The notes under the pieces are model-generated. The model was given only the letters and a program-made list of their open reading frames with translations. It was not told the DNA's origin and made no database searches. The position numbers were made by a program, and so were the translations under genes. From positions 1 to 33,108 of the forward strand of contig JANQHV010000079.1 of the NCBI GenBank assembly GCA_028282505.1: a stretch of DNA of 33,108 nucleotides, read 5' to 3'. Source of the DNA: SAR324 cluster bacterium. GTDB lineage: Bacteria > SAR324 > NAC60-12. This document shows positions 1-28,025 of the stretch, one piece after another (within the stretch, counting starts at the first letter, position 1; the number at the start of each line of letters is the position of its first letter).

Positions 1-2340
1 CACAGTTGTGACAGTAGCAGTCATAACACCACATTATGGCTTAACTTGATTGGACTCATCATTGGTGCTATATGTGCACCCAAGTAGCTGACCATAATAA
101 CCTGAAACAGACATAGGAGACAATATAACACAAAAATAGCCACAACTACTTGAAAGTATTAAAAATTTACTATTTTTTCGAAGAGGAGGGTAACATTTAA
201 AAATACCTTTGGTTATTACATGATATGTGCGTGTACTAAAATCAGAGAAGGCAGCCACCATTAAATCATTTTGACAGTGTTTGTTTTAGGTACACCCACT
301 GACTGACTGTGCTATGTAAATGTAGTTGATGCATGACACTGTAGTGTATATCCTGTCTCACATTACATACAATCACTCTTCATCATCACCCACTATCTCT
401 CCCTGTATGTATACACTGTGTCTTTTTAATGAGGACTTGTCTGCCAATATAAACTGGTCACTGATGTATCAAGATGGATGGATCTTGTGTCTGTGTATGT
501 TTTAATATGTGTGTGTGTGACCCCTTTTATCTTTCTTCAGCTTCTAAACTGTTCAACTTCTTAAAACCACACCACTTTTCAAAATCTTACAAAAACTGTG
601 TGTGCATCCAAAGCTGCCAAAGTTTTAATCCAACAAAATGTTTCACATTATTATATTGGCCAATGTGTGCATTATATAGCTGAGGATTATGTACTAAATA
701 GCACTGTGTTGTTATAGTGATATCAGTAGTGATAAGCAATCATATTTCACCTGTGTATATGAACCTGAAATGCCACATTCTCTCACTTTATGGGTGCCTT
801 GTAATAACATGTTTATGCAGCTTAATGAGCTGTTTGTTGTTTTTAGACACTGGCTATCAGGGAGCTCCTAACTACACTGAAATAATGTTAATTCTAGCCT
901 TTAGTCATGGTTTATGCAGTTTAATGCACACACACACCTGCTGAGAGGGATGAAGTCCTCCACTTGCCACATGTGTCACATCCCTGTTAAGATAACTGGA
1001 CTTTCTCCTGATAGTGTTATATAAATAGGTGTGTCATGTCCAGTGGGTTAAGATAACTGTGGACTTTATCTTATCAAACTAATCCAGTAGGCTGGACCAG
1101 TCACTGGCATGTATGTGACATATTCACTGTGTGAAAATTATCAAATAGAAAGTGCCAAAAAAAATACATACTTGACACAATAAAACTGTTTTCAATAAAT
1201 GCTCTCAATGTATTATGTTCAAAATAGTCAAATTAAAATTATAATCAAAAGTGATAATTTTGGGGGCAATTATTGCATCATGCTTTGGGAAAGAAAACAA
1301 AATTAGGTCAATAAAATTGTCTTACTGAGGTATTAATGGGTGAAAAGTATGTTAATATTATATGTTTTTAAAAATCAGACCAAAGAGTTGGACTCCCATA
1401 TTCTCACTTTCAACTGGTTCACAACTTTGTTGGTGAATTTTGGCAAAGTGCTAAAATGCCATGTATTGTATTCAATGCAATTGAGTAAGTAATGGGTTTG
1501 AAATAGTTGTTTTAGTGTGGGGAGGGGGTTATATACAGTGTACCATATAGCAGCTTGTGCCATATCACAGTTATACAAGCACTAAATCAAATTTACAAAC
1601 CAGCCAAAACTTGTTAGCATTGATTTCCACCCTTTTCTGTTGGTAGTGGAGATAAAAGGCTATAAAAGAATTTTGACAATTACAGCATTCTTTTTTTTCC
1701 TTGTGTCCCCCTTGTTGGGGGGGTTTATAAAAGAACAGCCACTTTTTTGCTCAATTAAATTATACATAGAATAAATAGTTTGTTTTTAAAAAAAATTGAG
1801 TAGGAGATTTCCAAATATTTATTATTATAAGTACAAAAATATCTTCATTTGAAAGAAAATTCTAATTAAATAAGCAATTATGCATGTGTTTAAAAGCATA
1901 ACATTAAAATAGATAGTGCAGCCAGGTTAAAACCTTTGCTTTATAAGGCTTCCTTTCATATATTTTCTGGCTATTGAACAACGTGTTATGTAATAGCCCT
2001 GATGCCACCTTTTTGTTGAGTGAGAGCCTAAGTGCACATTAGTGTGAATGGTGTGTTTGTAATGTGACCCTCCTGTGACATATCAGTTGTCATATTGTAG
2101 GCCTTATTTACTGTGTTGTCACTTACCCACACCAAGGGTCTCTCTCTTACTCAAACACCTACATCACTAACTCTTGTCAATCTCTTTCAATGCACTTAAA
2201 AATAAGAAATCCCTGGTTAAATTACCTTTTAAAATATACACATTCAAAAATAATAACAAGAAGAATCTATTTTCATGTTTGAAAAGTATCAACATTTTGT
2301 TGGTTGCTACAAGAGAGAAATAATTTCTGTTTTTTTTTTT
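1..2340. other. Non-bacterial-looking (eukaryotic/host-like) AT-rich noncoding DNA joined to bacterial sequence
   Basis: No ORF above ~75 aa in any frame, short CA/TG microsatellites (e.g. near 508-518 and 926-936), homopolymer runs, ending in a poly-T tract around 2330-2345. Gene density is close to 100% immediately after. Confidence 0.7.
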
Positions 2341-2365
2341 TTTTTATTATTGAGCTGTTTTAATT

Positions 2366-4657
2366 TCAATGTAATACCCCAGCCGTAAATCGTTCTGTTG
2401 GCAGAGAAATTCCCCATCGTTGTTTTTCCCATTCTAACAAGGCTTCTGCATCACTCTGGATTTGCAAGGGCTCTGGCACATTTTCCTGAGACGTGGCAAA
2501 ATTCCACTCCAAAACCGAGGGATCGCCTTCCACAATATCGGAGGTTTGCTTCATATACATGGAGAAAGCTTCTGCAAGACGGTCATCGAACAAAAAATCT
2601 GTCAGTTCGTCAATCAACCATTGAATGGGAAGAAACGATGCATATTCATTGAGGGGAAAAAAAGCACAAAGCGCCTGCTTATGGTTGGCAGCCCATTGAT
2701 AAAAAGCTTCTCTGTTGGTTGGCAACTGAAGTTGTTGGAAATCAACCAGGTGGGTACAATCAATCCCGATTGCATCAGAAGTGACAACCAATCCTTCTTG
2801 TGCTGCCAGGCTGTGCTCAATGGACCACTGGAGCAGCAAATTGCCCAGTGATCCTAGAAAAGTACGATATTGGTACAATCCACTGAACTTTCGTCCCAGT
2901 TCCATACCATTTGCCAGCTTGACGACCCTCCGATTTTGCTGCAATTCCAGATTCCATAGTTTTTGTGGCCGATTGAATAACTGGAGTGTTCGATCCTCAT
3001 CAATTGCTTCAGGAGTTTGCAACAGTTTTTGAATGGCTTGAGCAACCTCATAAGATATTTGAAATCCAGCACCCAACCAGATGATGTCTTTGTCATCCAA
3101 TTCTTTGGTTGGTTGTGCCACAACATATTTCCGTTCTTTCTTTTCAATTTGCAGTATTTGGATACGCTTGCCTGCTAACTGGACTCGATCTCCCACTTCC
3201 AGTTGCTTGACCACCGATGTGGGCAAATCCGCAATTGATTCTCCAGCAAGCTCCAGAATATAATCTTCCTCTGCTTCTGGAAAATTGCTCCAGATTTTTC
3301 GTTCCAACAAATAATCCCGGTAACGCCAGCCTCCTCGGAACAACCCTTTCACCCGATCCTGACGAAGCCAGTTTTGTCCAATCATGCTTTCAAAAAACGT
3401 TTTGATTATCTCTGGAATATCAGGAAAAAGCTGTTGCAGTGAGAGTGTGGAGAGCTGTTTCTTTTCATAAAGACAGGAAAGGATCTGTTGAATCAAGACA
3501 CTGGGCAATGTTTTAGGGAGTGGTGACTCGATCATACTTTGCCGGGCCAACTGCAATAATCCGAGGAAGCGGAGTAATTGATAACTCGCTTGCTCTCCCC
3601 GGCAAACTCCCCAGAAATTGATGGCCTGCTGACGACGATTGGAGCGCCCAATTCTTTGCAGAAACGTAGCAACCGAATCAGGAGGCTCATAGAGCAAAAC
3701 AGCATCCACATTGCCAATGTCAATGCCCAGTTCCAAGGTGCTGGTGGCAATGCAAAGCACATGCTTTTGACGGCGAAAACGCTGTTCTACTCCCCGACGC
3801 TCTTTCGTTTTGAGATTGGAATAATGCAGTTCACAAACACTACGGAATCGTCCCTTTTGATTCAAAAGCGCAAACAGTTGATCGCAACACCCCCGGCTAT
3901 TGGAAAAAATCAAAACTTTACGATAACCCCAGGCATCATAAAAATCATTGATCAAGGCGACTACTTCCTCTTCTTTCTGAAGATGAACGAGATGAGGAAT
4001 GATCTCTCGTTGTATGGATGTACGGATTTGTACAGTCTCTGAGGAAAAATCAAAGGATTGGATAACAGCATCAATATCAGCAATTGTGGCAGATAGAGCA
4101 ATTTTTTGTAATGGTGTGACTGAGCGCAAATCCAGTCGCCTTAAAAGGTAAGCCAGTTGTCTACCCCGGTAGCTGTGCACAAAAAAATGGATTTCATCCA
4201 TGATCGCTATTCGAACACGCTGCATGAAACCACGTAGGTCTGCATTGGAACTACCCAAAGCGACGTCTAACGATTCTGGGGTGGTCAACAACAGTTCAGG
4301 GTGTCCACCTCCTGCTCGTTTTACATCTCCGGTGCGGATACCCAGAGACAACCCAAGCCTGTCCATGACTGGCATAAGACGTCTTTCCAAATCAATGGCC
4401 AAGGCTCGAGTAGGAACAATGTAGAGAATAGCTTCTTGTCCTTGAGACTGAATCACGCGCTCCAGGGCAGGAGCCAATACGGCTTCTGTTTTTCCTGAAC
4501 CGGTCCTGGCCTGTAAAATCAGATCTGAGCCTTCCAAAATAGGAGCAATGGCCTGCTTTTGCACTGAATGCAGTTGAGAAAATGCTCCATAAAATGCACG
4601 GAACGTATTAGGAAGTTGAAGGAGTGGAGAGGTACTATTGTTCAGAGAAATAGACAT
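2366..4657 (-). CDS. DEAD/DEAH-box superfamily 2 helicase, Lhr/BrxHI-like
   Basis: 763 aa; Walker A ARTGSGKTEAVLAPAL, motif II MDEIHFF, motif III ALSATIAD, C-terminal helicase motifs IATSTLELGIDIGNVDAVL and QRIGRSNRR. Confidence 0.9.
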   Translation of the reverse strand: MSISLNNSTSPLLQLPNTFRAFYGAFSQLHSVQKQAIAPILEGSDLILQARTGSGKTEAVLAPALERVIQSQGQEAILYIVPTRALAIDLERRLMPVMDRLGLSLGIRTGDVKRAGGGHPELLLTTPESLDVALGSSNADLRGFMQRVRIAIMDEIHFFVHSYRGRQLAYLLRRLDLRSVTPLQKIALSATIADIDAVIQSFDFSSETVQIRTSIQREIIPHLVHLQKEEEVVALINDFYDAWGYRKVLIFSNSRGCCDQLFALLNQKGRFRSVCELHYSNLKTKERRGVEQRFRRQKHVLCIATSTLELGIDIGNVDAVLLYEPPDSVATFLQRIGRSNRRQQAINFWGVCRGEQASYQLLRFLGLLQLARQSMIESPLPKTLPSVLIQQILSCLYEKKQLSTLSLQQLFPDIPEIIKTFFESMIGQNWLRQDRVKGLFRGGWRYRDYLLERKIWSNFPEAEEDYILELAGESIADLPTSVVKQLEVGDRVQLAGKRIQILQIEKKERKYVVAQPTKELDDKDIIWLGAGFQISYEVAQAIQKLLQTPEAIDEDRTLQLFNRPQKLWNLELQQNRRVVKLANGMELGRKFSGLYQYRTFLGSLGNLLLQWSIEHSLAAQEGLVVTSDAIGIDCTHLVDFQQLQLPTNREAFYQWAANHKQALCAFFPLNEYASFLPIQWLIDELTDFLFDDRLAEAFSMYMKQTSDIVEGDPSVLEWNFATSQENVPEPLQIQSDAEALLEWEKQRWGISLPTERFTAGVLH

Positions 4658-4695
4658 TGATGAATGTTCTACTTGGAGAATTCATCTTGTGAAAT

Positions 4696-4727
4696 CTTTC
4701 TATACGTATTAAATTACGTATAGAAAG
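4696..4727. promoter_or_regulatory. Perfect 13-bp inverted repeat, probable MazEF autoregulatory operator
   Basis: CTTTCTATACGTA-TTAAAT-TACGTATAGAAAG immediately upstream of the antitoxin ATG (4736), overlapping its ribosome-binding site (aaaggag). Confidence 0.75.
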
Positions 4728-4735
4728 GAGTTGCT

Positions 4736-4960
4736 ATGCAAAAAAAGTTAACAATCTCATTAGACCCTCAAGTATATGAAGGTTTACATACCAACATTGG
4801 TCGTCGTAACATCAGTAAATTCATAGAAAACCTCGTACGTCCCTATACAGAACAAAGTTTAGACGATGGTTATCAAGCTCTAGCTCAAGATGAAGAGTCC
4901 TCACAAGAAGCCCTCGAATGGTCCGAAGCACTGATCGGAGACGTGGACTATGAAACGTAA
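4736..4960 (+). CDS. MazE/RHH-like antitoxin
   Basis: 74 aa, N-terminal MQKKLTISLDPQVYEGLHTNIGRRNISKFIENLVRPY resembles a ribbon-helix-helix antitoxin; overlaps the downstream MazF ORF by 11 bp. Confidence 0.8.
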   Translation: MQKKLTISLDPQVYEGLHTNIGRRNISKFIENLVRPYTEQSLDDGYQALAQDEESSQEALEWSEALIGDVDYET

Positions 4961-5273
4961 AGAAATATGGTGGGTCAACTTTGACCCTTCAGTTGGTGGA
5001 GAAATTCAAAAGCAACGTCCCGCAGTAATTATTAGTAATGACAGTGCAAATAAGCATCTTAATCGTGTCCAAGTTGTACCGATAACCAGCAAAGCTGATC
5101 GAATTTATCCTGGCGAAGCTCATGTCACATTCAAAGGCACTCAACATAAAGCATTAGCCAATCAAATCACAACGGCAAGTAAACGACGCTTAGTTAAGAA
5201 AGCCGGATCATTATCACAATCCGATATTATAAAAGTTGAGCAAGCAATCAAAATCCAGCTTGGGCTTCGCTAA
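4950..5273 (+). CDS. PemK/MazF-family mRNA interferase toxin
   Basis: 107 aa; KRKEIWWVNFDPSVGGEIQKQRPAVIISND...VQVVPITSK typical of MazF/PemK. Confidence 0.93.
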   Translation: MKRKEIWWVNFDPSVGGEIQKQRPAVIISNDSANKHLNRVQVVPITSKADRIYPGEAHVTFKGTQHKALANQITTASKRRLVKKAGSLSQSDIIKVEQAIKIQLGLR

Positions 5274-5303
5274 CTCCTAAGCCTACGAGTCTCAGCTATT
5301 TCG

Positions 5304-6554
5304 TTAATTGAACTCATGAATCTCCCCTTGATAGATCACATCCAGTTGGTTGACCAGGGCTTTCAACTGATAGCGGGTTTCTTCTCCCTGGAGTTGGACA
5401 ATTTGCGCCATCATTTGAGGTAACGTTGTTTCTGCGGGAGATGGTTGTTGATAGGCATTGGCATATAAGTCGATCAATTTTTCGATCAGTCCTTCCCATT
5501 CTTTTTTGGACAAATCTTCCAGACGATACAAGTTCAAATCGTTCCAGGCATCGGCATAGTTTTCTGGGAAGTAAGGAATTTCTTCCTCTTTGCGCAGATA
5601 AGTCCGTTCATAATCTTCTTCCTTCACACACTGAAAAAAATCATCGGTGAAGGCAAAGACAGGAAACAATCTTCCAGGTTCCACTTGAAAGAACAGACGA
5701 TGGAGAATTTGGTAGCTGCGGCTGCGGGAAGCAATCCGCACCTGAGCAATAGACTCTCCTTCATCAAAGAGCAGGACCCAACCCTGGTAACCCAACTGTT
5801 GAAAAAGTTTGGCCAACCCTTCGATCATCTGAAGATAAATTTCTATGCCTTTAAAAGACAAAGAACCTTCTCGATAAAAGGAAACTTGTCGGTATTTGAG
5901 GACATTTCGTAATTTATTCACGGGGATAACATCTCCCCCAAGTGCGGATTCTAAGAGGTAAGAAAACTCTCTTGGGCGGAAATTGGCATGCTTTTTAGCC
6001 TTTTTTTGCCGTGTGGAAAGTGACACATTCTTTTGTGCCATGCCCACCAGGATGGACCGGAACAGGTGGGGAATGTTGTCTGGCAATAAATCCATGACAC
6101 CATTCGGCAAATCATTTCGATTGCGCATTTGCTGTTGAACCCATTCTTTCCAATGATTAGCAAGAGAGGACTCTGCCTTTGGAAATTGGAGATTAGCCAA
6201 CAAAGCACGATAGACCTGTCGAAAATCATGCAAAGGGACTTCGCGCAAATCCAGGTTGACCATACTGGTCACATAATTGGCTTCAAGTGCCTTTTGCTGA
6301 ATATAAGTCAGGCTGTGGGATTTGCCCTGACCATAAGAACCACAGACACACAAATGGGTGTTTTTCCCCCTTTGCACTTGTTGGAAATTTTGCTCAATCG
6401 CAGCATTTAATTTGTCTTCATGGGCTGTTAGCAGACGCACCGCAATAGGATCGAACAGCCCTTCCCGCAAGCGTTCAACGGCATGACGTAAATGGAAGGG
6501 AGATTCGTCGTTCAGCTTCTGGAGATAGGCATTGGTGTCTTTCATGAATCCCAT
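5304..6554 (-). CDS. BrxC/BrxD (DUF2791)-like P-loop ATPase, paralog B
   Basis: 416 aa; Walker A CGSYGQGKSHSLTYI, Walker B GWVLLFDEGESIA, LREVPLHDFRQVYRALL motif; overlaps the upstream gene by 13 bp. Confidence 0.75.
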   Translation of the reverse strand: MGFMKDTNAYLQKLNDESPFHLRHAVERLREGLFDPIAVRLLTAHEDKLNAAIEQNFQQVQRGKNTHLCVCGSYGQGKSHSLTYIQQKALEANYVTSMVNLDLREVPLHDFRQVYRALLANLQFPKAESSLANHWKEWVQQQMRNRNDLPNGVMDLLPDNIPHLFRSILVGMAQKNVSLSTRQKKAKKHANFRPREFSYLLESALGGDVIPVNKLRNVLKYRQVSFYREGSLSFKGIEIYLQMIEGLAKLFQQLGYQGWVLLFDEGESIAQVRIASRSRSYQILHRLFFQVEPGRLFPVFAFTDDFFQCVKEEDYERTYLRKEEEIPYFPENYADAWNDLNLYRLEDLSKKEWEGLIEKLIDLYANAYQQPSPAETTLPQMMAQIVQLQGEETRYQLKALVNQLDVIYQGEIHEFN

Positions 6555-7846
6555 TTTGGCTGAAGTTGTTCCATTTTTTCCTGTTCCACTTCTTTCTGAC
6601 TCAGGACAATCTGCTCGGTCATGTCATCTTCCATATCTGGCGCAACTCCTTGTTCTGCCATGTCCAAGTAACGAATGACCTGTTTGATAAAAAGCCTCAC
6701 TTCACTCAACACTCCCATTTGAGACTGAGCCTTGCATATTTTCTTGATCAAGTCGTCATTGATGAGGCCTTTGCTGTCCCAACGATAAGAAATTTCATGG
6801 ATTTGGCGTAAAGCATATCCCAGTTTGACCAGTTCTTCTGTTTGCAAAGGAGTTCGGTGTAAATCAATCAGAATGCTGCGATAATTCAGCCGTTTACTTT
6901 CTCCCACAGAACGAACACGACTCCAGAGAGCATCATAAGATTTGAATCCCTTCTCGGATGCAAGCACATCGGGAATGATGGAAAAGAAAATATGGAGGTA
7001 TTGGGCCTGCTCGGTATTGTCAATCAACAAACGCACATTTTCATAACCTGCATTACGGACAGAAGCCGACTGGGGAATGATGGTTTCCAGTTCATCCATC
7101 AACAAAATAAAACCTTTGAAATCTAAATGTCGCACCCAGGCAATCAGAGATGTCAAAAAACGTTTACTGTTGGTCTTATTCAGGGACTCGAAGATCTGAA
7201 ACGGCTTCAATTCACGCTTCGTGATTTTGCCGCCTTCAAACCATTGATACAAAACTTCCAGGTTCCGAGTCCGTTCCTCCTGAGTTTCTCCGTCTGCCAA
7301 TGCATTGTACTTTTGATCGATAAAAGCGGTGAGGGCATTGGCAAAATTGAGGTCCATGCCAGGCAGTGCACGCAGGGTGTCATTGAGCCCATTCCATTTT
7401 TCCTGGAAAGCAGCTGAATCTTTTTGCGCAAAATCAGCTTCCAACTTGCTGACCCAGTGATCCACCAAATGACGAATTCCAGTTCCTTCAAAAGTTCCAC
7501 AGAGTTGACGCACCAACTCCTGATAGATGACCTCGAATTTGTGCACAGGTACTTCCCGAGTCAGTACCACAAAAGAAACCACAAAACCCTGTTGCAGAGC
7601 AAGGTGGCGAACGACAGACATGAAATGAGTTTTACCATCCCCATAATCCCCATTGATGAAACGCACCTTGGAGCCACCTTCGGCTACGTAGTTTTCCAGA
7701 TCATCTTCAATAAAGGAGAGCCACTTTTGACGTCCTACCGTGAACAAAGGGACATAATCAATGGGCACGCTGCCTTTGCGCAGACTCTCTACAATGGCCC
7801 TTGCTTCAAAAGGCTTTAGTTGCTGAATTTCTGTTTGTGATGTCAT
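6542..7846 (-). CDS. BrxC/BrxD (DUF2791)-like P-loop ATPase, paralog A
   Basis: 434 aa; Walker A NGDYGDGKTHFMSVV, Walker B GFILLMDELETII, TREVPVHKFEVIYQELV motif shared with paralog B; 4-bp ATGA overlap with the upstream gene. Confidence 0.78.
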   Translation of the reverse strand: MTSQTEIQQLKPFEARAIVESLRKGSVPIDYVPLFTVGRQKWLSFIEDDLENYVAEGGSKVRFINGDYGDGKTHFMSVVRHLALQQGFVVSFVVLTREVPVHKFEVIYQELVRQLCGTFEGTGIRHLVDHWVSKLEADFAQKDSAAFQEKWNGLNDTLRALPGMDLNFANALTAFIDQKYNALADGETQEERTRNLEVLYQWFEGGKITKRELKPFQIFESLNKTNSKRFLTSLIAWVRHLDFKGFILLMDELETIIPQSASVRNAGYENVRLLIDNTEQAQYLHIFFSIIPDVLASEKGFKSYDALWSRVRSVGESKRLNYRSILIDLHRTPLQTEELVKLGYALRQIHEISYRWDSKGLINDDLIKKICKAQSQMGVLSEVRLFIKQVIRYLDMAEQGVAPDMEDDMTEQIVLSQKEVEQEKMEQLQPKWDS

Positions 7847-8685
7847 GATGAAGGCTCCTGAAATGTGATAGCCGTGAATTGACGTGTTTCTCCATCTTTA
7901 TCAATCAACCATAGGGCATGATTGCGTCCAGATCTCAATTGCAGTGGATATTTTCCCAATGCTCCTCCCGTATTTGCTTGAAAATACCGCCATATGTCTA
8001 CTGAAAACTCTCCCAAACTGTATCCTTTGAATTTTCCCTTGTCCATGTTCTGGAAAAAGGCTTTGGTTTGCAAAGATATGACGTATGCCAGATAAAATTC
8101 CTGCATGGGAATTGGGTACCCTAACACCTCTTTATGATCTTTAACCAGCTTGCTGTATAATTGGAACAGTGAGTCAATGAATTTTTGTGGATCATACGGG
8201 CGATCATACAACTGGCGTTTGATTTTCAATACAGATGAAATGATCCGTTTGGGATCAATGGATTTTAATTTTTTTTCATTGATCGTTGTCTGTCGGCCCG
8301 GAAAATCAAAGGTTCCCTCAATGCCTTTCAATACAGAAAAGCGGGGAAAATCTATCTCAATGGGTAAATCTGCTGCTGCTGCATGAGTTTTGACGTCTTC
8401 GATGAAATCGAGCCGATAACGGTCTACTTTGGCATTAGCATATGTTCGCAAACGTGCAAAAATTTCTGTGCATGCCTGTAGCTCAGGTTCCTTTTCCATG
8501 TCCTGCGCCAATCGGTTTTTGAGCAACTCATCCAATCGTAAAAAATCGTCTTTTTCCGCACATTGGATGCAGCGTCGCACCAGTTCGACCATCTGCTGAC
8601 GCCGATTTTGCTGCTGTTGGTAAGGTTTTAAGATCTCAGTGAGGCCCTCGGTGGCTTCTTGAAGAAATATTTCCTGCTCTTGCAT
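7843..8685 (-). CDS. Uncharacterised, mostly helical 280-aa protein, first gene of the ATPase operon
   Basis: Intact ORF translationally coupled (ATGA) to the first ATPase; no domain recognised by eye. Possible distant TerB-C-type partner, not verifiable here. Confidence 0.75.
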   Translation of the reverse strand: MQEQEIFLQEATEGLTEILKPYQQQQNRRQQMVELVRRCIQCAEKDDFLRLDELLKNRLAQDMEKEPELQACTEIFARLRTYANAKVDRYRLDFIEDVKTHAAAADLPIEIDFPRFSVLKGIEGTFDFPGRQTTINEKKLKSIDPKRIISSVLKIKRQLYDRPYDPQKFIDSLFQLYSKLVKDHKEVLGYPIPMQEFYLAYVISLQTKAFFQNMDKGKFKGYSLGEFSVDIWRYFQANTGGALGKYPLQLRSGRNHALWLIDKDGETRQFTAITFQEPSS

Positions 8686-8905
8686 ATCATTCCTAACATT
8701 ATCTTATAAGGTCATCTATCAATTGATGATGTGTTATGTTTCATGACTGTATCTCAAATCTATGAACTCACGAGCATGCATTCATATCAAAAATTCAGAT
8801 GAATTACCAAATTTTTATTTTTTTGGTGAATAGCTCTACAAAGAATGAGAACAGGGGCACGATTAGTTTCTCATAATGACATTGAATTAATCCAAAGAAC
8901 GGGTT

Positions 8906-8968
8906 AATATGTCGAAATATTTAAAAAATCGACATATTCTACAAATATGTTGATGGAATCGACATAAT
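8906..8968. promoter_or_regulatory. Tandem inverted repeats upstream of the antitoxin/PIN operon
   Basis: AATATGTCGA (8906-8915)/TCGACATATT (8929-8938) perfect 10-bp arms, then a second degenerate pair AATATGTTGA (8944-8953)/TCGACATAAT (8959-8968). Confidence 0.65.
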
Positions 8969-8980
8969 TGTCTCAATCTG

Positions 8981-9283
8981 GTGCCAACTATGCAACAGCT
9001 TTCCAAGAACACAAATAAACTGTCACTACAAGAATTACAGAATCATCCTCAATTGTTGTCGAATCTGATTGCTCAAGAAAAAGACAGTCGCTTCATTATT
9101 GAAACACATGGCGATGAGGTAGTCGTTGTACAGCAAAAAAAAACTTCCCTACGTTTTGTGGAGATCATGCAAAAAGTTGAAGCAGAACGAAACAAACGGA
9201 AAAAACAAGGATATACAAGAGAGCAATTGTTTCAGGAATTTTTTGAGCTTCAAGACGAATTGAATCTTGCTATCACACAGTAG
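8981..9283 (+). CDS. Putative antitoxin partner of the PIN toxin
   Basis: 100 aa (GTG start at 8981 or ATG at 8990), small charged protein ending 1 bp before the start of a PIN-domain gene, preceded by operator-like repeats. Confidence 0.7.
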   Translation: MPTMQQLSKNTNKLSLQELQNHPQLLSNLIAQEKDSRFIIETHGDEVVVVQQKKTSLRFVEIMQKVEAERNKRKKQGYTREQLFQEFFELQDELNLAITQ

Positions 9284-9284
9284 G

Positions 9285-9725
9285 ATGAAAACAGAGTTCC
9301 GAGTTGTTCCTGATACGAATGTTATAATTGCCGCAGAAAAACCGACGTTTAATAGCCCAAATCGAGAATTTCTACAGCGTTGGAAAAATGAGGAATTCCA
9401 GGTTCTATATTCCCAGGACATGTTGGAAGAATACTTGAATAAATTGGATGACCATCATATAGCTGAAGAACAGATTATTTCATTTTTCTTCTATTTAACA
9501 GAACTTGCTGAAGCCATCGAAATTCTGTACTTTCATCATCCTTCATACAAATACCCCATAGACCCAGACGATATAGCCTTCCTCCTTTGTGCGGACAATG
9601 GCCACGCCACTCACTTGGTCACCTACAACAAAGACCTCCTCGATGTCGATCCTTACCACAAGTTTCGCATTTGCCAAACCCTTCCTTTTCTAAAGGAACT
9701 TCGTACTGAGCTACCGGAACATTGA
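9285..9725 (+). CDS. PIN-domain toxin (VapC-like ribonuclease)
   Basis: Start ATG likely at 9285 rather than 9267; RVVPDTNVIIAA N-terminal Asp motif, PIDPDDIAFLLCADNGHATHLVTYNKDLLDV conserved acidic motifs. Confidence 0.88.
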   Translation: MKTEFRVVPDTNVIIAAEKPTFNSPNREFLQRWKNEEFQVLYSQDMLEEYLNKLDDHHIAEEQIISFFFYLTELAEAIEILYFHHPSYKYPIDPDDIAFLLCADNGHATHLVTYNKDLLDVDPYHKFRICQTLPFLKELRTELPEH

Positions 9726-9760
9726 CTTTCTTTTTTGCAGTCTACGAAACTAAGGCAAAT

Positions 9761-11128
9761 CTAATCGACACACAGTGAATTCAGGCAGGCATATCCGGCA
9801 CAAACACCACCTTCATTTTGATCAGCAGCCTTGGTACGCACCAGATAGCCCACATCCTGATTGAGCAGGATATCGTTTTCCTTAGCGAGGCACACTCCAT
9901 AACAGCCGACTTCACTGATACAAGATGTTTCCTGTGTTTTTCCTTCCACTACTAAGATAGCTTGATGCTCTTGGGCCTCAATCCGCTCCATTAAAATGTA
10001 GGCAGGATATTCCTCTTTGTTCAAAGACTGGAGCAAAGTGACCATCTCTTGATCAAAAAAATTATTGCCCCCTCCTTCTCTTTGAGGTTTGAGGACATAC
10101 TTGTCAGGAAAATGACGAACAATATTCTTGGCAAGATCGGCTTGTCCCTTACTTTCCAGAGTTTCATCCAATTGATACATGCCAACAAAGGTCTCTGCTA
10201 TTTTCTGAACATTTTCTACTTTCACAAATTCCTGTAAAACCCTGGAGTCTGTCAAAACTTGTTGAATTTTTTTCATACCAGCCAACTGCATCGCTACACT
10301 GGGAACACTGATTGAAGACGACGATTCAATCAGTCTTCTTCCTTTCCAGGCATCTTCTGTCTGATAATCAGCAGGACTATAGCCTGCTCTCAAATAAGTT
10401 ACCGCCGCAATTTTTCCCTGAACCATCAAATGTCCTTCTCGGCATACTGCATGGTTGGCCACGTCTTCCAGAGTCATGCGAATCGTAGGAATTCGGTATT
10501 TTTGCCAAAGCAGGTATTCTCCTCCTCGCTGATCAAAGAGATTCTGTTCGCGCGTTTGCACAATCTGCAAAACACAAGATTCCGGATGATCATATTGCCG
10601 AATCACCAAAGCGATGGCATCCACAATTCCTGTTAGAGGATCATTGGCCACCAATTTTTGTCCCAAAGCCTGATGCTCATATAGAAATTGGTGCAACTGG
10701 TTGAGTTGAACCGATAAGTAAGGAAAACTCACGGATATGGTATTATACTCAACCTGCTTTGGTTGCAGCAAACCTGAAGAATTCACAGCCAACATAAAAT
10801 CATTCCTGCCAATCAAGAATTGATAGGGTTGTGTGATTTCCTTTTCAATATAGATCGCTATCAGGTTCTTGACAAACTCATCGGTATGCGCTGTCTGTTC
10901 CAGGTAGTTGATTAAAAAATCTCGATTAGACGCAATTCGCAACATCAACTCATTGAAAATTGGTGTGAGTGTTACCATCTGGTCTAATGTGTCTTTAGAT
11001 AGGGAATACGGAGTTAAAGAAAATGGAGCATGTACTAATTGAAAACCGGCATTGAATTTAATCAAGCCATGCATTAATGCAAAATCGATTGCTTCTTCCA
11101 GTCGATTAGGCGCAACTATTGCTTGCAT
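9761..11128 (-). CDS. Eukaryotic-type glutathione synthetase
   Basis: 455 aa; VLKPQREGGGNNFF, YLRAGYSPADYQTEDAWKGRRLIESS, QLAGMKKIQQ, ILMERIE, DVGYLVRTKAADQNEGGVCAGYA match the eukaryotic GSS family (human: VLKPQREGGGNN, RDGYMPRQY, QLAGTKKVQQ, ILMEKIE, HVGHLLRTKA...GGVAAG), recalled from memory. Confidence 0.9.
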   Translation of the reverse strand: MQAIVAPNRLEEAIDFALMHGLIKFNAGFQLVHAPFSLTPYSLSKDTLDQMVTLTPIFNELMLRIASNRDFLINYLEQTAHTDEFVKNLIAIYIEKEITQPYQFLIGRNDFMLAVNSSGLLQPKQVEYNTISVSFPYLSVQLNQLHQFLYEHQALGQKLVANDPLTGIVDAIALVIRQYDHPESCVLQIVQTREQNLFDQRGGEYLLWQKYRIPTIRMTLEDVANHAVCREGHLMVQGKIAAVTYLRAGYSPADYQTEDAWKGRRLIESSSSISVPSVAMQLAGMKKIQQVLTDSRVLQEFVKVENVQKIAETFVGMYQLDETLESKGQADLAKNIVRHFPDKYVLKPQREGGGNNFFDQEMVTLLQSLNKEEYPAYILMERIEAQEHQAILVVEGKTQETSCISEVGCYGVCLAKENDILLNQDVGYLVRTKAADQNEGGVCAGYACLNSLCVD

Positions 11129-11528: not shown

Positions 11529-12080
11529 ATGGTACGTATTATTAGATGCGCTTTAGTTTTTAGTATTCTTCTGGGCATAACTAGTTTTACCGCATTGGCT
11601 GAATCCATAAATGAAGCAGCAATGATCAATCCGGTCAACGATACCAGTGAGGTAAAGCCCAAAAAACAAACACGAAAAACCACTATAAACCAATCCATCG
11701 AAGCTGCCATTCAAAAAGCCAGTCGTATGCATAAATTACCCACTGACTTAATCCGTGCCTTGATTCACGTAGAAAGTGGCGGTGGTATCAGAGGAGTTTA
11801 TGCTGTTTCTCACGCAAACGCACAAGGATTGACTCAATTATTACCAAATACCGCCAAGGAAATGGGAGTACGTGATCCTTTTGATATTGAACAAAATGTA
11901 ATTGGTGGCACTGGTTATTTAAAGCGTCAAGTGGAAAAATTTGACAGTTTATTCTTAGGATTGGTTGCCTACAATTGGGGTCCACGCAATACATTAAGAG
12001 CGCTACGGGGTCAAAAGCACATTCCACGCTCTGTGAGACACTATGCCAATCGGATCATCAAAGCATATCTTGAAGCATGA
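11529..12080 (+). CDS. Lytic transglycosylase (SLT domain), secreted
   Basis: Signal-peptide-like N-terminus; LPTDLIRALIHVESGG, AQGLTQLLPNTAKEMGV, NVIGGTGYLK, LGLVAYNWGP motifs. Confidence 0.92.
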   Translation: MVRIIRCALVFSILLGITSFTALAESINEAAMINPVNDTSEVKPKKQTRKTTINQSIEAAIQKASRMHKLPTDLIRALIHVESGGGIRGVYAVSHANAQGLTQLLPNTAKEMGVRDPFDIEQNVIGGTGYLKRQVEKFDSLFLGLVAYNWGPRNTLRALRGQKHIPRSVRHYANRIIKAYLEA

Positions 12081-12091
12081 CCTATTTTCTC

Positions 12092-12123
12092 TGACTCACA
12101 CCTTTTTTCTATTGTGTGAGTCA
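12092..12123 (+). terminator. Putative intrinsic terminator after the transglycosylase
   Basis: TGACTCACAC...GTGTGAGTCA perfect 10-bp stem 12 bp after the stop codon; downstream T-tract is weak (actctcctttt). Confidence 0.5.
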
Positions 12124-12307
12124 ACTCTCCTTTTCATTGTATCTTGCTCCCCTGAAAAACTTTCCTTATCAATCGCTGCTACTCGATTATCTTTCGCAAG
12201 CGGCATAAAATCTGCAAAATCATTTGTGTCTATCGGCTCAGACGTTTACAATAAATAATGTCAATTTTAGCTTTCCACACACTTTTTTATTTTTTGAGCA
12301 CTGTACC

Positions 12308-13786
12308 ATGATCAAATCCTTCAAAATACCACCAATTCTACATTTCTTTATTTGTTTTTTCCTGGTTGGTGTTGTCAATGTCCATGGACAAACACAATCC
12401 AGCATGAAGCAACTACAAAACCAGGCATTAGCTTATCATTATGGAAGAGATGGAAAAACACAAAATTACCAAAAAGCCCTGGAATTGCATGGGCAAGCGG
12501 CAAATCAAGGGTATGCCCCCGCACAGTTTTCATTAGGAATCATGTACTATCATGGCCGTGGTGTTGCCCAGGATTATAACATTGCTTTTCGCTGGTTCCA
12601 AAAATCCGCACAGCAAAAATACCAGGAAGCTCAGTATTATACAGGGTTTATGCACTATTATGGCAAAGGTGCTGCCCAGGATTATGCAAAAGCTGTAGAG
12701 TGGTTTTATGGTGCAGCAGAACAAAATCATGCTCCCGCACAATATTATCTGGGTTTTATGTATTACTATGGCCGTGGCGTCACACAAAATCATGCCACTG
12801 CCTTCAAATGGTTTGAAAAATCATCAAAGCAGAATCATGCTCAGGCACAATATTATGTGGGTCTGATGTATGAACAAGGAAAACATGTTACGAAAAATGA
12901 AGAAAACGCAATGGAATGGTATCAAAAAGCAATTGCAAAAGGGGATTTAAACGCAAAACGTCGCATGGTCATTCTTCAAAAACAAATGGCAAAACAAAAA
13001 AAGAAGCTCCGACAACCAGATTCTGAAAAAACACCCCCTCCAATTGCCAAAACTCCTGTGAAAAAAACTCAGCAATCTGACAAAGTTCAAAAATCTTCTA
13101 AAACAACTAACAATGCTTCGGTATCTTCTCTTCCGTCTTCCTCAACGGAATCTGTGTCAGCTTCTGTTTTTGTCTGTGAGAAGATGCCAGTACCAATTGA
13201 AAAAAACGAAAAAGAAAATAAGGCGCTACCCAAAGGACAGTGCGACGATCCCAAATCTGCACACAGCTATGTTCATTGTGATTTTAAAGAAGCTGATTTA
13301 TCAGGACGGGATTTGCATGCTTCTTCTTTTAGAGGAGTGAACTTAACAAATGCGAATTTAGAAAACAGCAATTTGCAAGGGGCTGATTTTCAACATGCTT
13401 GGCTCAGTCAAGCTAACTTGAAAAACACACAATTGATCCAGACCAATTTAGCCCATGCTGATTTGAGAGGCGCGAACCTGGAAAATGCCATCGCATGTGA
13501 AGCCAATCTTGATGGTGCATCGCTCAATGGGGCTTTCTTGCATCAAGTGGACTTGTATGGAGCCAGTTTAATCAAAACAAATTTCAGTGGTGCGTTTCTT
13601 GTCCATGCCAACCTGAATCGTTCTCATTTGATTTCTACGTTGTTGCTCCAATCCCGCATCCGAGGCATTCAACTCAAAGAAGCATCCTTGGAAAACGCAA
13701 ACTTCAATGGGGCTATTGGTATTCCAAAATGGTTGCTCGCCCATCTAAACTCAGATGGCGAGCTGTTGCATGCTAAGCTCAAATAA
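12308..13786 (+). CDS. Secreted Sel1-repeat/pentapeptide-repeat fusion protein
   Basis: Start likely ATG at 12308 (MIKSFKIPP..., signal peptide) rather than 12224. About five Sel1 units (e.g. APAQYYLGFMYYYGRGVTQNHATAFKWFEKSS), a K/P/S-rich linker, then pentapeptide repeats (ADLSGRDLHASSFRGVNLTNANLENSNLQGADF). Confidence 0.9.
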   Translation: MIKSFKIPPILHFFICFFLVGVVNVHGQTQSSMKQLQNQALAYHYGRDGKTQNYQKALELHGQAANQGYAPAQFSLGIMYYHGRGVAQDYNIAFRWFQKSAQQKYQEAQYYTGFMHYYGKGAAQDYAKAVEWFYGAAEQNHAPAQYYLGFMYYYGRGVTQNHATAFKWFEKSSKQNHAQAQYYVGLMYEQGKHVTKNEENAMEWYQKAIAKGDLNAKRRMVILQKQMAKQKKKLRQPDSEKTPPPIAKTPVKKTQQSDKVQKSSKTTNNASVSSLPSSSTESVSASVFVCEKMPVPIEKNEKENKALPKGQCDDPKSAHSYVHCDFKEADLSGRDLHASSFRGVNLTNANLENSNLQGADFQHAWLSQANLKNTQLIQTNLAHADLRGANLENAIACEANLDGASLNGAFLHQVDLYGASLIKTNFSGAFLVHANLNRSHLISTLLLQSRIRGIQLKEASLENANFNGAIGIPKWLLAHLNSDGELLHAKLK

Positions 13787-19616: not shown

Positions 19617-22028
19617 TTATGCCACCTTGGTGACTTCTCCTGCTTCTTCAGTATTTGCAAATGCAGCAACTAATGGAATTTCCAATTCTGTTGATGTCAC
19701 ATCAGGTTGTGATTTGCTGGTGTACTGCGTAATTCGCCTTAAAATTTCTTCATTGGTTGCAGGAATCCTCAATTTTGGTATCTGGTCTTTGGCAAGATAA
19801 GAAAGAGCATTTTTCACAGCAGCCCATACGGATAAAGAGAGCATGAAAGGAGGCTCCCCAACGGCTTTACTGCGCCTGATATTGATGGTATGGTAAGGAT
19901 TTTTCATGGTGTTGACATAAAATTCTTTGGGGAGATCCTGTATATTAGGAATTTTATAAGTTGTTGGTGAATGCGAAAGCAACGCGCCATCCTCCTGATA
20001 CCGAAGTTCCTCATTGGTCAACCAGCCGATTCCCTGAATAATGCCACCCTCAATTTGCCCACGGTCGATGCCAGGGTTGATGGATTCTCCAATATCCATT
20101 AATAAATCAAGACGCTCTATCGTCAAGTTGCCTGTGAAACGATCAATCAGCACTTCAGCGACAGAACAACCTGTTGTATAATAGAAGAAAGGATTGCCTT
20201 TCCCCGTTTCCCGATTAAAATCCACTCCCGGCGTTTTATAGAAACCACGTGCACCAAGACTGATGCGTTCTTGAAAGGCTTGAACAACCAATTCTTTAAA
20301 TTTTACTTTTTCTTCAGGACGCCTTTCGTCGAAAACATGACCTGCTTCAAATTTGATATATTCTGCTCCAGGAGCAATTCCTTCTTCTGAAGAAGCCAAA
20401 CGACGGCTGGCCAGTTCAATCAAACCTGTTTTGATTTTTTGACAGGCATCGATTGCAGCAAGCCCGTTTAAATCAGTTCCTGCTGAAGCGGCGGTGGGAG
20501 GAGTATTGTTATTTTTCTCAGTTGAGGTGGGCATTAACTTCACATGATGATAATCAATACCAAACTCATCTGCAACAAGCTGGCGAATTTTGGTATTCAA
20601 CCCTTGCCCCATTTCTGTTCCACCAGTCGACACCTGCACTGTACCATCTTTATAGACATTGACCAATGCATTGCCCTGATTTAAAAATTTTGTGGTAAAG
20701 GAAATACCAAATTTAACCGGAGTCATAGCGATTCCCTTGAGTTGGGTACCAGCTTGTTCGTTGAAACGCTTTACAGCAGCATATCGTTGTTTATACTCAG
20801 AGGTCGCGGCTAGTTTCTCAAAAATTTCTGGTAAAATCGTGTGTTTTACAATTTGACCATAAGGAGTGATATTATTTGTTTTCACTCCATAACAGTTCAA
20901 AGTACGAATGTCATAAGCATCCATTTTTAGATAAATGGCGATTTCTTCTATTATGTTTTCGATAACCGCCATGCTTTGAGGACCACCAAATCCACGAAAA
21001 GCTGTATTGGGAGGAAGATTGGTCTTACAAACTCTCCCATTGATTTCAACATGGGGAATATAGTAAGCATTTTCTGCATGGAGCATGGAACGCTCCATGA
21101 TTGCTGTCGACAAATCAGCAAAAGCGCCACCGTTGGAATAGAAATCCACCTGCAATCCCTCGATTTGTCCTTGCCGGGTAAATGCCACTTTATAGTGAGT
21201 CTGATAAGGATGACGTTTCCCTGTAATTTTCATGTCATCATCTTTGGTGTAGACAACTCGAGCCGGGCGTCTGGTGTAAAAGGCAACCAATGCTGCCATC
21301 ATTGCCGGAATAGCAGCCTGGGTTTCTTTTCCCCCAAATGCCCCTCCCATTCGTCTACAAACACTCACCACTTCGTGTTGTCCGACACCCAGCAATTCGG
21401 CAACAACTTGCTGTGTCTCTGTTGGATTTTGTGTTGAAGAGATAATCGTCAGTTCATTATGTTCCCCTGGATAAGCAATAGCTGCTTGAGATTCCAAATA
21501 AAAATGGTCTTGTCCGTTGCTATAAAACGTATCTTCCAGGACACATTCTGTTTCGTTGAATGCTGTCTGAACATCTCCTCGTTTGATTTGCCGTTTTTCT
21601 CCCAAAAATTGTTGTTTGGCACATGCCTGTTCAATAGAAAACACAGGTTCATATTCTTCCATCTGGACATGAACGAGCTTTTTTGCCTGTTTTGCAGCCT
21701 GCCAATTTTCGGCAGCAATGATCACAATGGGTTGTCCCAAATATTCACAAATGTCTTCTGCCAAAAAATACTCATCCACCAGAATGGGGCCAAACAGATT
21801 ATGTCCTGGAATATCCTGATACGTATAAAGGTCAACAATCCCTTCAATCTTCCTAGCCTTCCCTAAATCAATTGACTGGATTTTACCATGAGCAACGGGG
21901 CTACCCACAACATCAACAACTAGTTCATTGTTGGCAAATGGGATATCATCAATATACAGTGCCTCTCCAGTCACATGTCCTACCGCAGAGTCGTGTGGTA
22001 TCTTTTTTCCAATGGTTCCCATAATCAT
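19617..22028 (-). CDS. xdhB: Xanthine dehydrogenase, molybdopterin-binding subunit
   Basis: 803 aa; RRMGGAFGGKE, TAFRGFGGPQ, GGTEMGQGLNTK, AVGEPPFMLSLSVW catalytic-site motifs of true xanthine dehydrogenases. Confidence 0.93.
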   Translation of the reverse strand: MIMGTIGKKIPHDSAVGHVTGEALYIDDIPFANNELVVDVVGSPVAHGKIQSIDLGKARKIEGIVDLYTYQDIPGHNLFGPILVDEYFLAEDICEYLGQPIVIIAAENWQAAKQAKKLVHVQMEEYEPVFSIEQACAKQQFLGEKRQIKRGDVQTAFNETECVLEDTFYSNGQDHFYLESQAAIAYPGEHNELTIISSTQNPTETQQVVAELLGVGQHEVVSVCRRMGGAFGGKETQAAIPAMMAALVAFYTRRPARVVYTKDDDMKITGKRHPYQTHYKVAFTRQGQIEGLQVDFYSNGGAFADLSTAIMERSMLHAENAYYIPHVEINGRVCKTNLPPNTAFRGFGGPQSMAVIENIIEEIAIYLKMDAYDIRTLNCYGVKTNNITPYGQIVKHTILPEIFEKLAATSEYKQRYAAVKRFNEQAGTQLKGIAMTPVKFGISFTTKFLNQGNALVNVYKDGTVQVSTGGTEMGQGLNTKIRQLVADEFGIDYHHVKLMPTSTEKNNNTPPTAASAGTDLNGLAAIDACQKIKTGLIELASRRLASSEEGIAPGAEYIKFEAGHVFDERRPEEKVKFKELVVQAFQERISLGARGFYKTPGVDFNRETGKGNPFFYYTTGCSVAEVLIDRFTGNLTIERLDLLMDIGESINPGIDRGQIEGGIIQGIGWLTNEELRYQEDGALLSHSPTTYKIPNIQDLPKEFYVNTMKNPYHTINIRRSKAVGEPPFMLSLSVWAAVKNALSYLAKDQIPKLRIPATNEEILRRITQYTSKSQPDVTSTELEIPLVAAFANTEEAGEVTKVA

Positions 22029-22061
22029 TTCTCCTTGCTTACAAAGAAGTCACTAAGATCA

Positions 22062-23516: not shown

Positions 23517-23526
23517 CATAACAGTT

Positions 23527-24312
23527 TTACAGAGTTTGCTGCAACCACTCATAAAAAGCAGGAAGCCCTTCTTTGGTTTTGGCAGAAACGGGAAAAATGG
23601 TGATTTCCGGATTGATCTGCTTTGCCCATTGGATGCATTGATCTAGATCGAAATCAAGATAAGGCATCAAATCAATTTTATTGATCAACAAGACCTGAGC
23701 AGTCAGCAACAGGTCTGGATATTTGAGTGGCTTGTCCTCGCCTTCTGTACAACTGATGATGGATAATTTCAGATGCTCTCCCAAATCATAAGCGGTGGGA
23801 CAAACCATGTTTCCCACATTTTCAATCACCAGTAAGCTGTTTTGCTGCAACGGAAGCTTGTGTAAAGCCTGATGGACCATTTCCGCATCCAAATGACAAG
23901 CAGCTCCTGTGTTGATTTGTACCGCCTCGGCACCAGCCTGACGGATGCGAGCGGCATCATTATCGGTTTGTTGATCCCCTTCAATGACCGCAATGGAAAG
24001 CTCGTGTCCCAAGTCTTCAACCATCCTCTCCAATAGGGCGGTTTTTCCAGAGCCAGGTGCACTGATCCAGTTCATGGAAAAGACATGATGCTGAGCAAAG
24101 TGTTCCCGGTTGTGTTGGGCTATCTGGTTGTTTTTTTGCAGAATGTTTTGCTTGATACTGATTTCTCTGCCAGTACCATCCGCCTCTTTCATATGGTGCA
24201 GATGATCATGTTGGTGAGAATGATCATGGGGATGAGCATGACTCATCACAGCCAAGGGTTTGCCATCAATTTTGGTTTGGTCGGCTTCCAAACATCCACA
24301 ATCCTGACACAT
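23527..24312 (-). CDS. hypB: Hydrogenase nickel incorporation GTPase HypB
   Basis: N-terminal CQDCGC plus His-rich tract HAHPHDHSHQHDHLHH; P-loop SAPGSGKTALLERM; IEGDQQTDNDAARI; NKIDLMPY. Confidence 0.96.
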   Translation of the reverse strand: MCQDCGCLEADQTKIDGKPLAVMSHAHPHDHSHQHDHLHHMKEADGTGREISIKQNILQKNNQIAQHNREHFAQHHVFSMNWISAPGSGKTALLERMVEDLGHELSIAVIEGDQQTDNDAARIRQAGAEAVQINTGAACHLDAEMVHQALHKLPLQQNSLLVIENVGNMVCPTAYDLGEHLKLSIISCTEGEDKPLKYPDLLLTAQVLLINKIDLMPYLDFDLDQCIQWAKQINPEITIFPVSAKTKEGLPAFYEWLQQTL

Positions 24313-28017: not shown

Positions 28018-28025
28018 GAGGTTTT

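Follow-up and report, generated by a model that had tools for sequence, protein, structure and literature searches.

The window, i.e., the whole stretch of 33,108 nucleotides of a SAR324 cluster bacterium that was analyzed here, contains a compact minus-strand operon whose ATPases and helicase are related to those of phage-defence systems. This raises the question of whether the operon encodes a defence system of its own, a divergent form of a known system, or a machine that maintains the cell's own chromosome. An earlier note on this DNA had proposed an undescribed, BREX-related set consisting of a 280-aa helical protein, two ATPases, and an Lhr/BrxHI-like helicase.

Gene content and the chimeric contig end

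The operon and its surroundings comprise the following features.

7843..8685, minus strand: P280, the first gene, 280 aa, founding member of an unnamed family
6542..7846, minus strand: ATPase 1, 434 aa, ORC/Cdc6-type AAA+ protein of the BrxC/BrxD family (Walker A GDYGDGKT, Walker B LLMDE)
5304..6554, minus strand: ATPase 2, 416 aa, second ORC/Cdc6-type AAA+ protein of the BrxC/BrxD family (Walker A GSYGQGKS, Walker B LLFDE)
2383..4657, minus strand: N-terminal part of the helicase-nuclease gene, SF2 helicase, BrxHI/SngC/Lhr-like
4736..5273, plus strand: MazEF/PemK-like toxin-antitoxin pair, an insertion separating ATPase 2 from the helicase gene, optional neighbour
8981..9725, plus strand: putative antitoxin and PIN-domain toxin pair, an insertion immediately upstream of P280, optional neighbour
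1..2382, no strand: apparently foreign, animal-like DNA, part of a chimeric contig and outside the system

On the sequence evidence, P280, ATPase 1, ATPase 2, and a helicase-nuclease of about 1950 aa clearly constitute a single operon and are inherited together. The first three genes overlap as originally described, with spacings of -4 bp (P280/ATPase 1) and -13 bp (ATPase 1/ATPase 2). ATPase 1 and ATPase 2 matched the Pfam family BrxC_BrxD (PF10923; E=4e-62 and E=5e-29, respectively). The reported P-loops were present, and the Walker A Lys and the Walker B Asp-Glu were invariant in the 13 aligned rows of ATPase 1 and the 12 of ATPase 2. Judged by the family profile and the intact Walker A/B motifs found in both, the two ATPases belong to the PF10923 ORC/Cdc6-type AAA+ proteins and evidently keep the intact motifs of the ORC/Cdc6 (helicase-loader) clade. 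A sequence search of ATPase 1 against the PDB gave no useful match.

P280 had no family match in Pfam, PADLOC, NCBIfam, or PHROGs and no sequence match in the PDB, and its homologues formed an alignment of 14 rows at 47-80% identity. The AlphaFold2 model (pLDDT 88.6) has a long helical N-half, as the description of a helical protein implied, but the C-half is alpha/beta. The top Foldseek matches in the PDB were mostly winged-helix proteins (Stn1, ORC, Cdt1, LP1413), all at E>=0.5, and a fold search against the PDB and viral structures returned nothing significant apart from a winged-helix signal that was weak but consistent; the C-half of the model may weakly resemble winged-helix domains, at a level below significance. 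P280 as a TerB-like protein was unsupported, with no Pfam or PADLOC match to TerB/SngA and an hhalign probability of 0.1 of 100 against two SngA proteins.

The called helicase ORF (2366-4657) encodes 763 aa, and its final codons belong to the foreign sequence beyond a junction. The foreign window end has a GC of 0.34, the CpG observed/expected ratio of positions 1-2350 is 0.04 versus 0.64-0.72 in the bacterial gene blocks, and no homology to the sister genome G001 was found in 1..2382. Window positions 2383-2473 match, at 100% identity, the opening 91 bp of another contig from this genome, C203, where the frame continues for 1221 codons (L030:92-3666), in frame with the ORF of the window, and the bacterial reading onto C203 has the same gene order as G001. 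The composition and the overlap indicate that window 1-2382 is CpG-depleted, animal-like DNA joined to a bacterial gene by a chimeric contig. The 763-aa ORF is not the full protein because of the exact 91-bp overlap and the in-frame continuation. An alternative, in which the strain has a genuine helicase shortened via an insertion of foreign DNA, would agree with the in-frame stop in the assembled contig, but it is extremely improbable given the in-frame remainder of the gene, the flank order shared with the sister genome, and the CpG shift to animal-like DNA, by which a complete 763-aa protein was ruled out. The same-strand helicase reported earlier stands as an SF2 helicase closest to BrxHI, but its size was an assembly truncation, and the nuclease and SF1 helicase that follow had been overlooked.

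The N-terminal part of the protein matched DEAD (E=1e-30) and Helicase_C (E=7e-19) in Pfam, and the best PADLOC match of its first 700 residues was BrxHI (E=1.7e-84), with SngC at E=3.4e-72. The chain continues on C203 into a Cys4 PD-(D/E)XK nuclease, an RNase H-like region, and an SF1 AAA_11/AAA_12 helicase. The Foldseek matches of the nuclease domain were Cas4, MGME1, Exo5, Dna2, and RecE (probability ~1.0, E 4e-5 to 1e-3), and the domain also matched the NCBIfam TM0106 RecB-like nuclease (E=1.9e-6), while a sequence search against the PDB gave no useful match. All four cysteines were invariant in 14/14 nucleases, and the GxPDL...GDIK...Q motif is intact in the window's organism. An active-site residue was lost in 3/14 nucleases; therefore, cleavage may be dispensable in some. 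The fold, the active site, and the four cysteines place the domain among Cys4 PD-(D/E)XK nucleases, with nuclease activity and a metal cluster as predictions. The motifs and the modelled fold together define the large protein as two helicases, SF2 and SF1, whose motor motifs are intact, joined to a predicted Cys4 (Cas4/Exo5/Dna2-like) PD-(D/E)XK nuclease.

Conservation, spread and neighbours

A total of 21 loci from SAR324, Desulfobacterota, Gammaproteobacteria, and Chlamydiae were compared, with contiguity judged within the limits set by contig ends. P280, ATPase 1, and ATPase 2 were contiguous and in a fixed order in all 21, an arrangement far beyond chance, and the helicase-nuclease came next in 17 of the 19 testable loci, either immediately or after a short gap or insertion, so that the set does co-occur in other genomes. 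Cultured hosts of the complete operon include Desulfobacter vibrioformis (L020) and D. latus (L017). The trees of ATPase 1 and ATPase 2 are congruent; therefore, the unit travels together. The ATPases of Legionellaceae pair with those of Chlamydiae (support 100/100), which indicates horizontal transfer. The spread is patchy, with counts of 3/52 for SAR324, 8 close and 7 distant among the 396 of the Desulfobacterota sample, 1/399 for the phylum of the Methylococcales genome, and 25/86 for one family. The locus is syntenic in two SAR324 congeners and is therefore not very mobile there. No P280 homologues were found in the plasmids and phages searched, and only BrxD and SngB-type relatives of ATPase 1 (~25% identity) were on plasmids among the matches listed. 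One class of six genomes contained P280 in 6/6 and the ATPase pair in 4/4 tested, unlinked and in housekeeping surroundings (P280 next to homologues of hps/phi, panE, and hpt; the ATPase pair next to genes resembling pmbA or selA), and the quartet-type helicase was clear in only 3/6.

The MazEF pair that had been noticed between ATPase 2 and the helicase gene consists of a putative antitoxin (4736-4960) and a PemK/MazF-like toxin (4950-5273; PemK_toxin, E=5.2e-27, Pfam). The gap at this place is 646 bp in the window versus 6 bp in G001, which is without the pair. The toxin upstream of P280 matched PIN_3 (E=3.4e-11, Pfam), and homology to G001 is broken at 8702-9767, the region of the PIN pair. 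By comparison with the syntenic G001, both pairs are insertions and do not appear to be core parts. The pairs could nevertheless be functional, as an abortive infection guard in which the toxins are set free, and the cell dies, once the ATPase block is disturbed. In the window, they bracket exactly P280-ATPase 1-ATPase 2; a PemK pair occupies the same intra-operon place in the distant lineage L065; and PIN genes lie <=2.4 kb upstream of P280 in 4/11 genomes versus 0.09 expected, over a span chosen after seeing the data. However, the pairs are missing from most loci, including G001, the toxin families differ between loci, and addiction modules settle in plastic regions anyway, and a guard function is thus very improbable. 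Other defence-like neighbours are DruA, which lies upstream at locus L064, and, in the genome of the window, a TIR protein encoded 6 kb downstream.

Proposed working and the housekeeping alternative

The nuclease and the SF1 helicase in the helicase polypeptide change the likely mechanism from the one that had been envisaged. The most likely reading, with a probability of about 0.5, is an AAA+-loaded two-motor helicase-nuclease that would degrade foreign DNA. P280 may bind DNA and/or dock both ATPases, which would assemble around the DNA and load the helicase-nuclease. Ski2/Lhr-type motors usually run 3'->5' and Dna2/Upf1-like SF1B motors usually 5'->3'. Being usually opposite in polarity, the two motors could each follow one strand of the same duplex, as in RecBCD, while the nuclease would cut the unwound DNA. 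The mobile four-gene lineage would provide a modification-independent defence against phages or plasmids, in which foreign DNA would be discriminated by its state (ends, replication forks, topology) and not by methylation. The machinery part of this model, predicted from motifs and folds, is fairly secure, whereas the chance that the mobile four-gene lineage serves in defence is put at a little better than even. The patchy spread, the horizontal transfer, and the toxin-antitoxin neighbours support a defence role, and Shango, with a homologous ATPase and helicase, would count for it by analogy. BrxD, which has been proposed as the loader of BrxHI (PMC12839542), argues for the loader model.

Counting against defence are the lack of P280 homologues in the plasmids and phages searched, the SAR324 synteny, and the class with unlinked P280 and ATPases, which looks like genome maintenance. 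P280 and the ATPases could serve the cell's own chromosome, where they would load the helicase(-nuclease) at stalled forks, double-strand ends, or crosslinks in the manner of Lhr, AddAB, or Dna2, and the patchiness would then be that of replaceable repair pathways. Genome maintenance stays a live rival because P280 is universal in one class and lies in housekeeping contexts there; the nuclease-helicase core resembles Dna2/AddB/Exo5, the locus is syntenic between congeners, and Lhr is a repair helicase (PMC10953399). On the other hand, the close four-gene lineage is patchy with cross-phylum transfer, it has toxin-antitoxin, TIR, and DruA neighbours, and the relatives of its ATPases and helicase belong to defence systems, and maintenance is considered less likely than not. 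A wider proposal, somewhat short of an even chance, is that the foreign-DNA-degrading machine represents a new, modification-independent class of immunity, in which P280, as an adaptor, and two ORC/Cdc6-like AAA+ ATPases would load a single-chain SF2+SF1 Cys4 helicase-nuclease onto invading DNA. This loader-dependent, RecBCD-like restriction machine may derive by recruitment from a P280-ATPase core with an older housekeeping role, which one bacterial class has kept.

Relation to BREX, Shango and other systems

Shango, a proven anti-phage system, consists of a TerB protein, the SngB ATPase, and the SngC helicase (PMC10250203). Like Shango, the operon is compact, an Lhr/BrxHI-like SF2 helicase comes after a PF10923 ATPase, and a methyltransferase is lacking (no PglX ORF among the operon genes). 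Its homologous ATPase and SF2 helicase, encoded by adjacent genes, also resemble the BrxD-BrxHI dyad of type 2 BREX (Pgl). A divergent Shango or type 2 BREX locus that works in the same way, with P280 in place of the TerB subunit or the Pgl components, would agree with this gene order and with the PADLOC matches to BrxD/SngB and BrxHI/SngC. However, P280 is unrelated to SngA and takes the place of a ~790-840-aa TerB protein. Shango has one ATPase, whereas the operon has two in separate clades (ATPase 1, support 100/99; ATPase 2, 100/100), both outside BrxD and SngB, the latter forming a separate clade. SngC and BrxHI are ~680-750 aa, whereas the helicase here is extended by the Cys4 nuclease and the SF1 helicase. 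ATPase 1 and ATPase 2 scored 153.7 and 87.4 bits, respectively, against the 350-bit cut-off of the NCBIfam BrxD equivalog. PglZ (PF08665) was not found in the window's 7.57-Mb genome (assembly 88% complete) and was absent in 9/13 quartet genomes searched, including this one, and no PglW was present among the operon genes. A divergent locus of this kind is improbable, and membership in Shango or type 2 BREX is largely refuted. The operon instead appears to be a cousin of both systems and a member of neither; for BREX, this had been anticipated by the description as BREX-related. The TerB-associated neighbourhood mentioned in the earlier note corresponds to Shango, and SngB and SngC were among the best PADLOC matches, although the set is not Shango. 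No description of the set was found in PADLOC, NCBIfam, or the papers searched, where a search for a TerB/ORC-ATPase/Lhr-helicase neighbourhood or the gene set returned only BREX, Shango, YprA, and Hachiman; a prior account may exist in the Ter-system genomics work to which the earlier note refers.

Defence systems repeatedly contain ATPase-helicase pairs like BrxD-BrxHI and SngB-SngC. In the operon, such a pair is accompanied by a second ATPase and a new, dedicated protein, and the helicase chain itself also includes a recognisable nuclease and a further motor. These additions allow a direct test of the "helicase loader" idea for BrxD/SngB, and the operon supplies a predicted effector, none being recognisable in Shango. 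The class with P280 and ATPases in housekeeping surroundings may reveal the origin of such systems.

Among other systems, ARMADA, TALON, and DISARM are multi-gene defence operons in which large SF2 helicases are fused to nucleases (YprA helicases, PMC12458937), but they carry a YprA helicase, a BrxHII-like helicase, and a PglX-like methyltransferase, and their described genes include no counterpart of P280 or of the ATPase pair. ApsAB/DdmDE, which removes plasmids, likewise has an SF2 helicase and a PD-(D/E)XK nuclease in one polypeptide (PMC11096173). In contrast, the operon has ORC-type ATPases and no Argonaute-like partner, and profile searches of P280, ATPase 1, and ATPase 2 gave no Pfam or PADLOC match to the Argonaute family. 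The TM0106-family RecB-like or Dna2-type nuclease-helicases, AddAB, and RecBCD also join a Cys4 PD-(D/E)XK nuclease to an SF1 helicase, and RecBCD similarly combines two motors in one machine. Here, however, the chain itself also contains the second motor, an SF2 Lhr/BrxHI-like helicase, and the helicase-nuclease is accompanied by ORC/Cdc6-type ATPases of its own.

Organization and conservation of the operon

The first three genes of the operon overlapped on the minus strand as the earlier note had claimed, with spacings of -4 bp between P280 and ATPase 1 and -13 bp between ATPase 1 and ATPase 2:

7843-8685, minus strand, P280, 280 aa
6542-7846, minus strand, ATPase 1, 434 aa
5304-6554, minus strand, ATPase 2, 416 aa

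Both ATPases, previously described as BrxC/D-like, indeed matched the BrxC/BrxD-type Pfam family PF10923, which is classed as ORC-Cdc6 AAA+ (PMC12839542). P280 had no above-chance match in Pfam, PADLOC, NCBIfam, or PHROGs. A single P280 scan of genome contigs yielded 12 loci, which came from SAR324, Desulfobacter, Desulfobacula, Desulfotignum, further Deltaproteobacteria, Legionellaceae, Methylococcales, and Chlamydiae; together with others from genome searches, the window, and a close locus in another genome (G006), these made up 21 close loci. P280 was followed by ATPase 1 in 21/21 of these loci (partial at one contig end) and then by ATPase 2 in 20/20, and the helicase-nuclease came next in 17 of the 19 testable loci, a count that includes partial genes at contig ends and two loci with an intervening toxin-antitoxin pair. 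The co-occurrence of the four genes in other genomes, raised in the earlier note, was thus confirmed. The two exceptions were G006 and a Methylococcales locus (L024), in which a PD-(D/E)XK transposase-family gene (7454-8377) followed ATPase 2 at the expected helicase position. The quartet is a real, conserved system that has so far not been described.

Comparison with a sister SAR324 genome (G001) showed two insertions in the window strain: upstream of P280 lay a PIN pair, and inside the operon, between ATPase 2 and the helicase, a PemK/MazF-type toxin-antitoxin pair (4736-5273). A locus from a distant lineage, L065, likewise had an upstream PIN gene and a PemK/MazF-type pair (11903-12509) at the same internal position. 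Of 11 genomes, 4 had PIN genes no more than 2.4 kb upstream of P280, compared with 0.09 expected from their genome-wide density (P about 1e-6 for this span, which was picked post hoc, and 2e-4 with a 10-kb span). A Druantia DruA-family gene was immediately upstream of P280 in one relative (L064:11094-12059), and the window's genome encoded a TIR_2-domain protein approximately 6 kb downstream of the helicase-nuclease (L030:9705-10886). The window also contained a gene for a eukaryote-type glutathione synthase upstream of the operon (9761-11128; syntenic in G001), a xanthine-dehydrogenase-type molybdoenzyme cluster (19617-24312), a NiFe hydrogenase operon (25211-28724), and a bacterial Roco protein with leucine-rich repeats, Roc, and COR domains (29891-32509).

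The helicase-nuclease and its truncation

In relatives, the fourth gene encoded approximately 1780-2030 aa, of which the window carried only the first 760 or so. The remaining C-terminal part was found from base 1 of C203, another contig of the same genome. Window 1-2382 was animal-like DNA joined to the bacterial gene; GC content in 1-2350 was 0.34 and CpG observed/expected was 0.04, compared with 0.64-0.72 in the measured blocks of bacterial genes. Because of this CpG depletion, an exact match of window 2383-2473 (reverse strand) to the first 91 bases of C203, a reading frame that continued into C203 without a stop, and alpha/beta hydrolase and SGNH-like genes after the helicase-nuclease that matched those of G001, we conclude that foreign DNA, window 1-2382, was mis-joined to the gene in a chimeric contig of the SAR324 MAG, and that C203 is the true continuation. 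The Lhr/BrxHI-like helicase of the earlier note stands as an SF2 helicase, but its gene is cut by the chimera, and the 763-aa ORF is not the complete protein.

The N-terminal SF2 part (DEAD/Helicase_C) was followed by a nuclease region, then an RNase H-like region of tentative identity, over which an NCBIfam TM0106 match extended, and then an SF1 helicase (AAA_11/AAA_12) whose motifs were intact. The nuclease region contained four cysteines as well as GxPDL, GDIK, and KWQVAFYA motifs. All four cysteines were invariant in 14/14 sequences, but an active-site residue had been lost in three relatives (L062, L063, and L064). Its AlphaFold2 model (pLDDT 83.6) matched MGME1, Cas4, Exo5, Dna2, and RecE with a probability of ~1.0, and AddB more weakly. 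In two genomes (L059 and L060), the protein was in two pieces, divided between its nuclease part and its SF1 part. A stand-alone 1287-aa protein resembling the nuclease-SF1 half was also present in the window's genome (L034:308-4171).

Distant forms and the P280-ATPase core

Three distant loci (L066, L067, and L071) contained P280-ATPase-ATPase-helicase operons with a helicase of ~700 aa and no fused nuclease. P280 was universal (6/6) in one six-genome class, where the ATPase pair sat away from it in 4/4 tested genomes and a clear quartet-like helicase was present in only 3/6. The unlinked P280 homologues, apart from ATPases, were:

L068:7912-8751, P280 homologue
L069:9743-10585, P280 homologue
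L070:6911-7747, P280 homologue
L072:8807-9634, P280 homologue

These four lay in a conserved operon with hexulose-phosphate synthase and isomerase genes and, in most cases, ketopantoate-reductase-like and phosphoribosyltransferase-like genes (all identified by eye). Because the helicase varies in form and is clear in only half of the class genomes, P280 and the ATPase pair are the core and the helicase is the variable module; therefore, the ancestral role of this core may have been other than defence.

Proposed mechanism and relation to Shango and BREX

ATPase 1 and ATPase 2 formed separate clades in a maximum-likelihood tree (support 100/99 and 100/100, respectively). The trees of the two ATPases agreed in their main groups, and Legionellaceae ATPase 1 paired with Chlamydiae ATPase 1 (100/100), the pattern expected from horizontal transfer. 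Three ATPase 2 homologues (L093:6855-8183, L094:8841-10166, and L067:2180-3619) had an additional N-terminal region of ~60 residues, which by eye was similar to a UvrD/PcrA-type Tudor-like domain and had no Pfam match.

The ATPases would load the helicase-nuclease onto DNA, with P280 perhaps acting as a DNA-binding or docking subunit. SF2 and SF1 motors of these types usually have opposite polarities; the two could run along both strands, and the nuclease part would cut the DNA. Of the two candidate main roles of the system, defence and maintenance, defence is somewhat more probable than not.

P280 had no detectable relationship to SngA, the TerB protein of Shango. The ATPases SngB of Shango and BrxD of BREX formed their own clades, joined to each other (96/97) and apart from ATPase 1 and ATPase 2, in a tree that sampled SngB and BrxD with only a few rows and in which the distant homologues had long branches and unsure placement. 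The BREX phosphatase PglZ, noted earlier as missing from the window, was not found in the window's genome either. Shango blocks phages (PMC10250203), and BrxD has been proposed as the loader of BrxHI (PMC12839542). The quartet is a variant of this kind of system, an ORC-type ATPase with a Ski2/Lhr helicase, and is new in its subunit family P280 and its fused nuclease.
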